A stretch of 64,000 nucleotides of DNA from Roseimicrobium sp. ORNL1 (lineage in GTDB: Bacteria; Verrucomicrobiota; Verrucomicrobiia; Verrucomicrobiales; Verrucomicrobiaceae): assembly GCF_011044495.1 (NCBI RefSeq), contig NZ_CP049143.1, forward strand, positions 2,976,001 to 3,040,000. The letters are read 5' to 3'. The notes below the pieces were generated by a model that had not been told where the DNA came from, did not search any database, and worked only from the letters and a program-made list of their open reading frames with translations. Both the position numbers and the translations under genes were made by a program. Positions 12,874-16,864 of the stretch are shown piece by piece; positions within the stretch are counted from its first letter, which is position 1; every line of letters starts with the position of its first letter.

Positions 12874-14094
12874 TCACGTGCCGCTGTCCATCTTGCCGGT
12901 GATGCGGAAGGAGGCGATCTTGTTCTTGATGTCGGGGGTGGGCATCTCCCAATGGAAGCGGTCGAGCTTGGGATGCTTCTTGAGGTCTTCCAGGAACTGG
13001 GCGGCAGTCTGCAGGTCACGTGCGTCACCGCGCAGTTCGATTTCAGTGGGCTTGGCCGAGAAGCGTTTGATGACGATGCCGCTGGGCGGCATGATGCTCG
13101 TCACGTGGCTGAGCTGCATCATGGGGTAGCGCTGCTTCTCCACGGCAGGCTCCAGGGCGCGCCAACGTTCAAAAGAGGTGCGCACACGCTCCGCCGGTTC
13201 GCGGAGACCGCTGGCACGCGCTTCCAAATCCGCAGCCTCTGCCTTCAGGGACTGCAGGTGCCACCAGCCAAGGGCGAAGAGGATGGCATACAGCACCATG
13301 GTGAGCATGCCCACGGAGACGAGACGGCGGCGGGATTCACGATTCGCCTGCGCGGTGAATACCGAGACGGGCAGCAGCTTCGGCAGCGCCTTCAGATCCA
13401 GGCCACGATTCGCTCCCGGAGGACCCGCGACTTCAATCGGCATGCTGATGTACTTGCGCAACTCCGTGGCCAGCGCTGCGGGACGCTCACCTGCGAGGGT
13501 CACGCCGCGCACCACGCCGAATCCTTCCTGTGACTCCAGGGTGAGCCGGGCCAGATCGAGTTCGCGGGCGAGATCCTGCACGGGCATCTCCGCGAAACCG
13601 GTCACGTGGCTGTGCCACAGGCGGCCCTGGAAGTTTGCCACGAGCACGAGAAGGCCGAGCTCCTCCACGATGCACAGGTTGTTCGCAGGCAGGGTGACAA
13701 GACGGAGCGCGGCGGTGTAGTTCACCGCATGAGGCACGGCCAGATCCCCGGGGAAGGGGTGCGCCAGCACATCCACGCTCACGAAGGACTGTCCCTGACT
13801 CTGACCCAGGAGATGCCATGCGAAATTCGGCGTGGGAGTTTTCTCCACGTGAATGCCGCGACGCTCGAGCTGGGCTTCCACCATTGAGGGGAGCAACGTG
13901 GTATCCACCGTGGGGAGCATGAGGCCGATGGTGCGGCACGCGGTGGCAGGCAGGCCTACCACGATGGGGCGCGATTGTTCCCGGAACTCCGCCGGCGAAC
14001 TCACGGGCTCCGCCTTCGTGGACGCAAGGGAACGCCAGAGCCTCCACGAAGGCTCGGTATCAGGAAGGAGAAAACTGGCGGCGCTGGCACTCAT
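12874..14094 (-). CDS. GspL/PilM-PilN-like inner-membrane assembly protein
   Basis: 406 residues. Residues 1-~250 form a cytosolic actin-like domain (PIVVGLPATACRTIGLMLPT, LCIVEELGLLVLVANFQG), which in GspL binds the GspE ATPase. A transmembrane helix near residues 265-285 (LTMVLYAILFALGWWHL) is followed by a coiled-coil segment and a PilN-type periplasmic domain (RYPMMQLSHVTSIMPPSGIVIKRF and ELRGDARDLQTAAQFLEDL). The fusion of PilM- and PilN-like parts in one chain is the GspL arrangement. Confidence 0.75.
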   Translation of the reverse strand: MSASAASFLLPDTEPSWRLWRSLASTKAEPVSSPAEFREQSRPIVVGLPATACRTIGLMLPTVDTTLLPSMVEAQLERRGIHVEKTPTPNFAWHLLGQSQGQSFVSVDVLAHPFPGDLAVPHAVNYTAALRLVTLPANNLCIVEELGLLVLVANFQGRLWHSHVTGFAEMPVQDLARELDLARLTLESQEGFGVVRGVTLAGERPAALATELRKYISMPIEVAGPPGANRGLDLKALPKLLPVSVFTAQANRESRRRLVSVGMLTMVLYAILFALGWWHLQSLKAEAADLEARASGLREPAERVRTSFERWRALEPAVEKQRYPMMQLSHVTSIMPPSGIVIKRFSAKPTEIELRGDARDLQTAAQFLEDLKKHPKLDRFHWEMPTPDIKNKIASFRITGKMDSGT

Positions 14095-14114: not shown

Positions 14115-15269
14115 TCATTCTTCAAATCGGGCGAGGTAATTCAAGGATCCATCGTCCTGACGTCGGGCAATCACCACCACCTTGTACGTGGATTCGCCGA
14201 TTCTTCCCACACTTTCCACCCGGCGGGTGAGGTGGTCTGCGGTGAGAAGGCTGTTGAGGGACGTGGCCTGCTGGCCGTCCATGCCCAGCAATTGGGTGGC
14301 CTGGTTGAGGCTCAGCTTTTTGTCGTCCTCCGTGTTGGGAATGCCGTCCGCACCGCTGCGCTCACGGATGAGGGACTGCGCGGCATTTTCCTCCACATCT
14401 GCCACGGCCATGAGAATCTCCTGCGGGGCGTAGTTCAGGTCGATGTAGCCGTCGCCATAGGTGCTGAAGTAGTTTCTCCAGTCGGGCTTCATGCGCTCCA
14501 CGGCGTCCATGCCCTTCGCGAGGATCATTTCATCCAGTGAGCCGAAGCCCTTGTTTCGGGGGAAGTCGGAATAGCCGCGCTCCTTGTAATAGTCGGACTC
14601 GCCGCCGTAGGTCCGCATCTGGCTGTCCGTGTCCACCCAGTCCGCGAGACCATCCACGGCGGTTTCGGCTTCCTGAGGACTGAGCTGCCAGAGGATGAAA
14701 AGATTGTAGATGATCTCCCGGTAACGGGAGTCGGTGATGTAGTTGATGGGGATGCGCGCACCTTCGGAGGAAATGGTGACGGAGAATCCGCTGTCCTCTC
14801 CCACGGTCTGCTGCAGCACCGGGTCACCCGGGCGTATCTGGGGATGCAATCCAACGGCAATGCCGCACTCGGCAAGGTGCAGGGCGCGGAAGCGCAGGGA
14901 CTCCAGGCCGTTGTCATCGACGCTGTCATTCAGGTAGTTCACCAGCGGGATGACGGTGAAGGTCATGAGGCCGATGGCGGCCAGCACGAGGATGAGTGCA
15001 TAACCACCCTCACGGCGTGACCGGCGATGGTGTGAAAGAAAACGCAAACTGCGCTGCTCACCCCAAGGAGCGGCGGCTTTAGCCGCCGTTGACTCGCGCT
15101 CGGGGCGCGAGGAATCGGGCGACTGAAGTCGCCCCTCCTTGGACAGGCTTCCAGGGCACGAGGACATGGAATCAGACGCGGGCACAACCGCACAGACGGA
15201 CCCGGCCTCTCCGGCCTCCGTACCACCTGCGCTGCTGCCTTCTCTGTTCCTTTTCATCCGCAAACCCAT
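14115..15269 (-). CDS. gspK: Minor pseudopilin GspK, with a palindromic element in its 5' part
   Basis: 384 residues if started at 15269. The prepilin-like leader is REGG^YALILVLAAIGLMTFTVIPL near residues 85-105; as is usual for GspK there is no Glu at +5. The body has SGFSVTISSEGARIPINYI, the ADWVDTDSQMRTYGGESDYY block and NYAPQEILMAV, all typical of the GspK tip pseudopilin that binds GspI/J. The ~75 residues before the leader are unusual: bases 15063-15142 are a structured palindromic element read in frame. A TTG at 15047, giving a 15-residue leader, is an attractive real start; if so, the element is in the 5' UTR. Confidence 0.9.
   Translation of the reverse strand: MGLRMKRNREGSSAGGTEAGEAGSVCAVVPASDSMSSCPGSLSKEGRLQSPDSSRPERESTAAKAAAPWGEQRSLRFLSHHRRSRREGGYALILVLAAIGLMTFTVIPLVNYLNDSVDDNGLESLRFRALHLAECGIAVGLHPQIRPGDPVLQQTVGEDSGFSVTISSEGARIPINYITDSRYREIIYNLFILWQLSPQEAETAVDGLADWVDTDSQMRTYGGESDYYKERGYSDFPRNKGFGSLDEMILAKGMDAVERMKPDWRNYFSTYGDGYIDLNYAPQEILMAVADVEENAAQSLIRERSGADGIPNTEDDKKLSLNQATQLLGMDGQQATSLNSLLTADHLTRRVESVGRIGESTYKVVVIARRQDDGSLNYLARFEE
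15063..15142. repeat. Cloverleaf-like 80-nt palindromic element
   Basis: An outer 8-bp stem (15063-15070 with 15135-15142) encloses three hairpins: 15071-15088 (8-bp stem, TT loop), 15094-15110 (6-bp stem) and 15117-15134 (8-bp stem, GA loop). The whole element is close to a mirror palindrome. Such GGCGGCTTTAGCCGCC-type units look like REP/intergenic repeats. Here it lies inside the gspK frame and is translated without a stop if the upstream ATG is used. Confidence 0.85.
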
Positions 15270-15281
15270 CTAAATGAATGC

Positions 15282-16385
15282 CTACCTGCCGCCGCCACCA
15301 CCGCCGCCTCCGCCGCCCGATGGCGCACCTGTAGAACCACCGCCACCGCCACGAGGTTGCGCGCCGCCGCCAAAATTCCCCTGGCCCTGACCTTGACCTT
15401 GGCCGCCGCCGGGGCCACCACCACCTGGGCCGCGACCGCCACCATCGGGTCCACCAGGGCCACCCGGACCTCCACGTCCACGCCCATCTCCACCGCGACC
15501 GCCGCCGTCACTACCACGGCCACGATCGCCGCCATCACCGCGGCCCCGTCCACCGTCCTGATTGTTGCCGCCGCGGCCTCCATTGTTTCCACCACCGCCG
15601 CCGCCGCCCTGGTCGCTGGTGCTGGAGGTTGTCGTCTGCGGACGCAGGGCGGGATTCGCCCCGGCAAGCTTCACCGTGGGCAGGGCGAAGACGACGCGGA
15701 TGGGCAGGGTGCGCTCGGCAAGGAGAAGGTTCATCTCCACCAGTTGCGGCAGATTCGTGCTGTCCCATTCCTCCACCCAGGTGTCGTCATCTACTTTGTA
15801 GAAGCGCCACGTCAGTGAGCTCACATTTTGCATGAGTGGCATCCAGTAGCGCCCCAGGTCATCCGGTGCGGCCACGCCTTCACCACTGGTCTGGGCCACG
15901 ACATCTCCTGTGTCGGGGTCCTTGGGGATGATATCCTTCCGGCTGAGAGCCAGGTAGTAAAGCTGCTGTCCTGACTCTGCGGCCTCCGTCGCGGCATAGT
16001 CGGGGCGTGTGCCGATGATGGTATCATTATACGACATCGGATTCAGGCCGAAGGAGAAGGCATCCGGCGCGCCGCTCATCGTGAGCTCCTGCTTGATGGG
16101 CTGGGAGGTATCCGTGATCTTCAGCGTGAGGATGGCGGTGGACGGCAGGCTTTGGAAAGAGTGCCGGCAGAGCGAGATGAAGCGGTTCAGCTCATCGTTC
16201 TCGAGCTGGACCTGGCGCGTCTCCATGGCCGTGGTCATCGAGACCCGCACAATGCCGAAGACCATGCCGGACAGCAGAGCCAGCAGGGACAGCGAGAGGA
16301 TGACCTCCATGAGGGTGAAGGCGGAGGTCGTGAAGCGCGGCGCCCTCCGGACCTCGACTTCGGACTGCGAATGCCGGGTTCTCAT
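15282..16385 (-). CDS. gspJ: Minor pseudopilin GspJ with a glycine-rich tail
   Basis: 367 residues from the ATG at 16385, which overlaps the gspI stop as ATGA. The prepilin motif is SA^FTLMEVILSLSLLALLSG, with Glu at +5 but Ala, not Gly, at -1. The globular domain (residues ~45-245) has RQVQLENDELNRFISLCRHSF and SSLTWRFYKVDDDTWVEEW, as in GspJ tip pseudopilins. From about residue 258 the chain is almost only Gly, Arg, Asp, Asn, Gln and Pro, ending in a run of ten glycines and Arg. This tail is far beyond the normal GspJ length (~200) and is discussed under findings. Confidence 0.88.
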   Translation of the reverse strand: MRTRHSQSEVEVRRAPRFTTSAFTLMEVILSLSLLALLSGMVFGIVRVSMTTAMETRQVQLENDELNRFISLCRHSFQSLPSTAILTLKITDTSQPIKQELTMSGAPDAFSFGLNPMSYNDTIIGTRPDYAATEAAESGQQLYYLALSRKDIIPKDPDTGDVVAQTSGEGVAAPDDLGRYWMPLMQNVSSLTWRFYKVDDDTWVEEWDSTNLPQLVEMNLLLAERTLPIRVVFALPTVKLAGANPALRPQTTTSSTSDQGGGGGGGNNGGRGGNNQDGGRGRGDGGDRGRGSDGGGRGGDGRGRGGPGGPGGPDGGGRGPGGGGPGGGQGQGQGQGNFGGGAQPRGGGGGSTGAPSGGGGGGGGGGR

Positions 16386-16864
16386 TGCTGCTGTTGCTGT
16401 CCGCTCCTTCCTTCGGTAGCAGTCTTGTAGACCCACACTTCCAGCGCTTCCGAATGGCTCTCACCACTGGCGGTATAGGTCGCGGTGACGATCAGCTTGT
16501 GCAGATCCTTGAGCACGGTGCCGTTGCGATCCTTCAGGGTAAGTTCCTCAGCTGCGCTGTTGAAGGTCACACCAAGACGCTCGTCCGTGTAGCTTTGGGT
16601 CAGCTCAGCCAGCGGCTTGCGGCGCACCTCCTCCAAGAAGGAGCGCATGCCGATGCGGATGTCATTCTCACGGTTCAGCACGCCGGTGGTCTGCAGGGCC
16701 ATGTGCAGGGTCTGCGCAAATCCCATCACGGCGAGGGAGAAGATGCTCATGGCGAGGATCAACTCCAGGAGCAGGTAGCCGCCCCGTCTCCTGCCCGCGC
16801 GGAGGGTGACCGTAGCGGGAAGTCGGGCTGCTGCTGGTGGTAGTGCTCCCTTGGGCAGAATCAT
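16382..16864 (-). CDS. gspI: Minor pseudopilin GspI
   Basis: 160 residues. The leader has many Arg residues and ends in RRRGG^YLLLELILAMSIFSLAVMGF, with Gly at -1 and Glu at +5, the GspI pattern. The rest fits a short minor pseudopilin (FLEEVRRKPLAELT, then a beta-rich end). GspI forms the tip complex with GspJ and GspK. It lies 8 nt after gspH and overlaps gspJ by 4 nt, showing tight translational coupling. A Gln run (QQQQQ) ends the protein. Confidence 0.88.
   Translation of the reverse strand: MILPKGALPPAAARLPATVTLRAGRRRGGYLLLELILAMSIFSLAVMGFAQTLHMALQTTGVLNRENDIRIGMRSFLEEVRRKPLAELTQSYTDERLGVTFNSAAEELTLKDRNGTVLKDLHKLIVTATYTASGESHSEALEVWVYKTATEGRSGQQQQQ

Follow-up and report, generated by a model that had tools for sequence, protein, structure and literature searches.

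Within the window, the whole 64-kb stretch of NZ_CP049143.1 that was analysed, lies a gene for the type II secretion minor pseudopilin GspK (14115-15269, minus strand), with 384 codons from an ATG at 15269 and an alternative ATG at 15257. Its product exceeds the cut-off of Pfam T2SSK_1st and matches NCBIfam T2SS_GspK with an E-value of 2e-15, below the curated cut-off. A gspJ-like gene lies upstream on the same strand (15282-16436), its stop 12 nt before the gspK ATG 15269 and its match to Pfam T2SSJ just under the cut-off. Downstream is a gspL/PilN-like gene (12874-14094, minus strand) with a weak PilN match. The gspJ product ends in a long tail of Gly-rich repeats (GGGGGR, RGRGGDGR; window 15282-15620), which the sister species has too, with length changes, and the gspJ products of many relatives end in a similar way.

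Read from ATG 15269, GspK starts with a predicted prepilin leader of 89 residues (15003-15269, minus strand), which ends ...RREGG and is followed by YALILVLAAIGLMTF. This pattern, a hydrophilic leader ending in Gly and then a hydrophobic stretch, is that of a class III signal peptide, and it places the putative cleavage site between ...RREGG and YALILVLAAIGLMTF. Prepilin peptidase cuts after the Gly preceding the hydrophobic stretch, on the cytoplasmic side, and leaders of 6-26 residues are listed in a review (PMC4471445); the 89 residues of the gspK leader are well above that range. An earlier, sequence-only reading of this DNA had noticed that a TTG at 15045-15047 (minus strand), downstream of a palindromic element, gives a leader of normal length, and it does, at 15 residues. 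The same reading put the residues added to the leader at about 75 and attributed them to the element. The difference between the two starts is indeed 74 residues, but the element itself encodes only 26-27 of the 89, and the sister species (G001), which lacks the element, already has a leader of 48-55 residues. GC content by codon position is 0.55/0.67/0.67 in the leader and 0.61/0.40/0.79 in mature gspK, so the leader is not clearly coding in this genome, while in the sister species its coding bias is clear.

The palindromic element occupies 80 nt at 15063-15142; the span first proposed for it, 15047-15150, contains it but is too wide, taking in flanks and the TTG. Folding confirmed the described unit, an 8-bp outer stem enclosing three hairpins. 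On the plus strand it starts with the 5' arm of the outer stem, CCAAGGAG (15063-15070), which contains the GGAG foot of a type-B REP, followed by the type-B hairpin CGGCGGCT-TT-AGCCGCCG (15071-15088) and a central spacer hairpin, CTCGCGC-TCGGG-GCGCGAG (15093-15111). The second half consists of the hairpin GGGCGACT-GA-AGTCGCCC (15117-15134) and then CTCCTTGG; on the minus strand these are the type-A REP hairpin GGGCGACT-TC-AGTCGCCC and the other arm of the outer stem, CCAAGGAG (15135-15142), with the GGAG foot of the type-A REP. The two arms pair over 8 bp (15063-15070/15135-15142). Folded as DNA or RNA, the element had z-scores of -5.5 to -6.1, and none of 200 shuffles was as stable on either strand; as RNA the fold is worth about -56 to -57 kcal/mol (z about -5.5 to -5.8). 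An Rfam search with the element returned chance-level matches only, none near the gathering score. No stop interrupts the unit in the gspK frame on the minus strand, as had been claimed; in frame -2 it reads KEGRLQSPDSSRPERESTAAKAAAPW. Its net length is 77-80 nt depending on the boundary chosen, so that frame-neutrality cannot be assigned from the element alone.

When the genome that contains the window (a single contig of 7.96 Mb) was searched for the same unit, a dispersed family emerged. There were 56 matches overall, including 13 full-length copies with 81-100% identity and a number of partial ones, and a covariance model added copies with longer spacers. The fold is kept in the 12 other full-length copies. 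A 22-nt REP pattern matched 50 times in the genome with up to 2 mismatches, against 3 matches for the reversed control; the 64-kb window holds only the one copy. Each of the 13 compact copies has two inverted REP hairpins around a third hairpin, and on the 5' side of the hairpin 25 of their 26 REPs carry GGAG or GGAA as the foot. Only two of the compact copies lie in conserved genes, gspK and an hrpA-like gene, both within variable segments. The others appear to be intergenic or in doubtful open reading frames, and most are outside plausible genes. As inverted pairs of GGAG-footed REPs are dispersed through the genome, and copies flank two RAYT genes, the cloverleaf unit is a REPIN, a non-autonomous mobile repeat that is not specific to gspK. 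The genome also holds a further repeat class, about 172 bp long, in five copies (L018, L019, L020, L021 and L025, near 5630259, 2891732, 2700581, 2604493 and 728341 of the genome). Its ends, CCAAGGAGCGGCGTGCTTTAGCCGCCG, are homodimeric and include a bulged base, and its interior is conserved in part. It has no RAYT gene close by, and there is likely to be one copy in G001 as well.

The genome has 17 Y1_Tnp genes above the cut-off. Two of these are RAYT genes with full REPIN copies on both sides: one on L036 (gene at 159984-160640), with REPINs at 159405 and 161354, and one on L037 (gene at 6937839-6938444), with REPINs at 6937726 and 6938549. Four of 18 REPIN loci lie less than 1 kb from a RAYT gene where 0.065 would be expected, and none of 200000 random placements reached the observed number. 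The two flanked RAYT proteins are 37% identical, and both have the HUH (PNHVH), WQ and YI..(N/K)P motifs and a predicted catalytic tyrosine. Both exceed the Pfam Y1_Tnp cut-off. Their NF047646 scores are 80.3 and 65.9 bits against an NCBIfam cut-off of 80, which the second falls short of, and a profile of the two sequences matched TnpA-REP in PDB 4er8 with an E-value of 6e-5. Flanking on both sides by the repeat, together with the HUH and tyrosine motifs, resembles the known RAYT/TnpA-REP systems, from which the guide tetranucleotide differs, not being GTAG. Around the remaining RAYT genes, the hairpins picked up by an automatic scan were mainly unrelated. Presumably it is the RAYTs of this genome, TnpA-REP transposases of the Y1 HUH type, that mobilise the REPIN, acting on it as single-stranded DNA.

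REPINs were described by Bertels and Rainey in 2011 as REP doublets that form hairpins and are linked to RAYTs, and a less stable clover fold was proposed as the form that the RAYT recognises (PMC3116915). In the alignment of our 13 copies 93% of the cells of the clover structure were paired, and none of 500 shuffles reached its covariation score. The alternative conserved fold, a long snap-back hairpin in which each REP pairs with its partner, scored below every shuffle and was rejected. The cells in these scores are sequences rather than independent events, so the independent changes are fewer than they appear. The central helix (helix 3) had 95.6% of its cells paired across copies; columns 38/58 changed on both sides in three sequences and its other pairs hardly vary. 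As copies in both orientations can mimic covariation, we also counted the 26 REPs singly, and 94% of their stem positions self-pair. The exchanges among them are G-C/C-G at pair 1 and G-C/A-T at pair 6, and a T-T mismatch recurs at pair 5, in nine REPs. Across copies, the base changes preserve pairing within each REP hairpin and not between the two REPs, evidence for the clover form and against the long hairpin.

Pair 6 also shows that all 13 compact copies are heterodimers, with one A-T end and one G-C end each. This rule and the self-pairing covariation bear on which REPIN fold the transposase recognises. A tentative idea, which we regard as rather doubtful, is that strict heterodimers persist because, with two different ends, the long snap-back hairpin is weaker and the clover needed by the transposase survives, with cleaved prepilin leaders serving as safe landing sites.

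By DNA similarity the family is confined to this genus among 38 genomes, and the covariance model also found looser relatives in other genomes. Among the elements that were read, those of several genomes have the GGAG foot and those of others GTAG or GTGG, and in G017 and G031 REPIN-like elements adjoin RAYT genes. The canonical GTAG/GTGG foot occurs at L091-L094 (in G011, G013, G003 and G016), while GGAG is found in this genus, G004, G005 and others, a change of foot inside one bacterial family. As some relatives carry the canonical foot, that family offers a setting in which to study whether foot and transposase change together.

In G001, gspK is 89% identical over the matched part and has no REPIN inside. 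The flanks GCCTGTCC and GGTGA of G001 partly match those of the element in the window. The earlier reading would have been contradicted by a relative with the same N-terminal residues and no palindromic DNA; G001 has neither the palindrome nor the residues that it encodes. The upstream start region, MGLRM(K/N)RN(R/S)EGSS, is common to both species, and no other part of the leader is as well conserved. The stretch from EGSS to the element has drifted, with indels that alter the local frame relative to G001. In other relatives gspK also starts beside the gspJ stop, -4 to +11 nt from it where measured, and leaders are about 12-35 residues in a motif-based pass that counts only loci matching the motif. 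The gspK alignment scan matched Verrucomicrobium sp. BvORR034/BvORR106, Phragmitibacter and Prosthecobacter, with no further member of the same genus. With the REPIN-encoded peptide as the query, the matches were mostly other copies of the element, several of them with stops in that frame.

The absence of the element from gspK of this single sister species suggests that it was most likely inserted. Our best explanation is that a REPIN which had spread through this Verrucomicrobiaceae genome probably entered the gspK start region in a stop-free frame, downstream of the start codon beside the gspJ stop and upstream of the site of prepilin cleavage, and that it is most likely translated and would be removed with the leader. 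Translation would run from ATG 15269 or 15257, giving a leader of 85-89 residues that includes those encoded by the REPIN. Prepilin peptidase would then remove these with the rest of the leader, leaving the mature pseudopilin unchanged and the effect of the insertion close to neutral. Removal with the leader would explain why the insertion is tolerated. We think it quite likely that the element is translated, since the upstream start beside the gspJ stop is shared with G001, while the TTG is a CTG there and its use would leave 234 nt untranslated. The sequence-only reading had offered a translated insertion as one of two possibilities. The dispersed repeat missing from G001 gspK and the shared upstream start both support it, with the TTG start as its rival.

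If translation instead started at TTG 15047, the REPIN would belong to the 5' untranslated region of gspK, and as an RNA cloverleaf between gspJ and gspL it may tune how well gspK is translated or how stable the mRNA is. The TTG has its 15-residue leader and a GGTGAG about 9 nt upstream to recommend it, the RNA fold is very stable, and the upstream leader drifts with little coding bias. GTG codons in G001 would likewise yield leaders of 19 or 23 residues, and Nocera et al. caution that many REPs at the 5' ends of open reading frames may be extragenic and act post-transcriptionally (PMC3733652). We nevertheless consider it unlikely, as it leaves the 234-nt gap after the gspJ stop, far from the spacing seen in relatives, relies on a codon that is not conserved, and puts the best-conserved stretch of the leader outside the gene; the frame is also open throughout.

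The other possibility raised at the outset, a 5' RNA structure controlling gspK, gains no specific support, as a mobile DNA element accounts for the covariation and the unit occurs at many unrelated loci. A regulatory RNA or attenuator that evolved in situ to serve the gsp operon would fit the strong RNA fold and the position between gspJ and gspL; with 12 other full-length copies at unrelated loci, several beside transposase genes, no match in Rfam and no element in G001 gspK, it is very improbable. A chance or codon-bias origin of the palindromes, which the GC-rich, repetitive character of the region and of the neighbouring gspJ end might suggest, is hardly credible given the shuffles and the compensatory changes among copies, and is ruled out by the genome-wide family. 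What was suspected to be a gspK-specific RNA device is thus replaced by the insertion of a mobile repeat.

Inverted REPs, a spacer hairpin, compensatory changes and nearby RAYT genes are all shared with the REPINs of Bertels and Rainey (PMC3116915), from which our family differs in its GGAG foot, where GTAG or GTGG is canonical, its low copy number, with 13 compact copies, the position of this copy inside a gene and its strict heterodimers. Nocera et al. described in 2013 intragenic REP dimers with GTAG or CGTC tags, open in the coding frame and encoding 20-30 residues, with O. terrae, of the Verrucomicrobia, and its RNA helicases among the examples; they discussed N-terminal cases and noted a preference for heterodimers, without explanation (PMC3733652). 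With GGAG as its tag, our family has neither the GTAG (GTGG) nor the CGTC that defines their super-families, and its host here is gspK, in an N-terminal leader that is expected to be cleaved. Translated intragenic REP dimers are therefore already known, also in Verrucomicrobia; what is added is a GGAG-footed family, its strict heterodimers and a landing site in a leader peptide. The Verrucomicrobiaceae thereby gain a population of REPINs with a GGAG foot, along with two RAYT genes that its copies flank, and gspK would be a case of a coding sequence absorbing a palindromic element within a part of the protein that is removed.

The second copy in a conserved gene, at 161354-161434, is open in frame inside a DUF3418 gene, which we take to be hrpA from the usual context of that domain. 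The G001 counterpart has an unrelated linker of similar length at the position of the REPIN. A RAYT gene adjoins hrpA in both species (L036/L108, genome 159984-161547; in G001 C5:320361-322137, L132 and L109). The two hrpA-adjacent RAYTs are 43% identical, and their orientation and flanking REP hairpins differ; insertions may recur at this spot. Another REP family, with the hairpin AGCGGCACTAGCCTTAGTGCCGGT, lies beside RAYT genes in both species (L035, L132).
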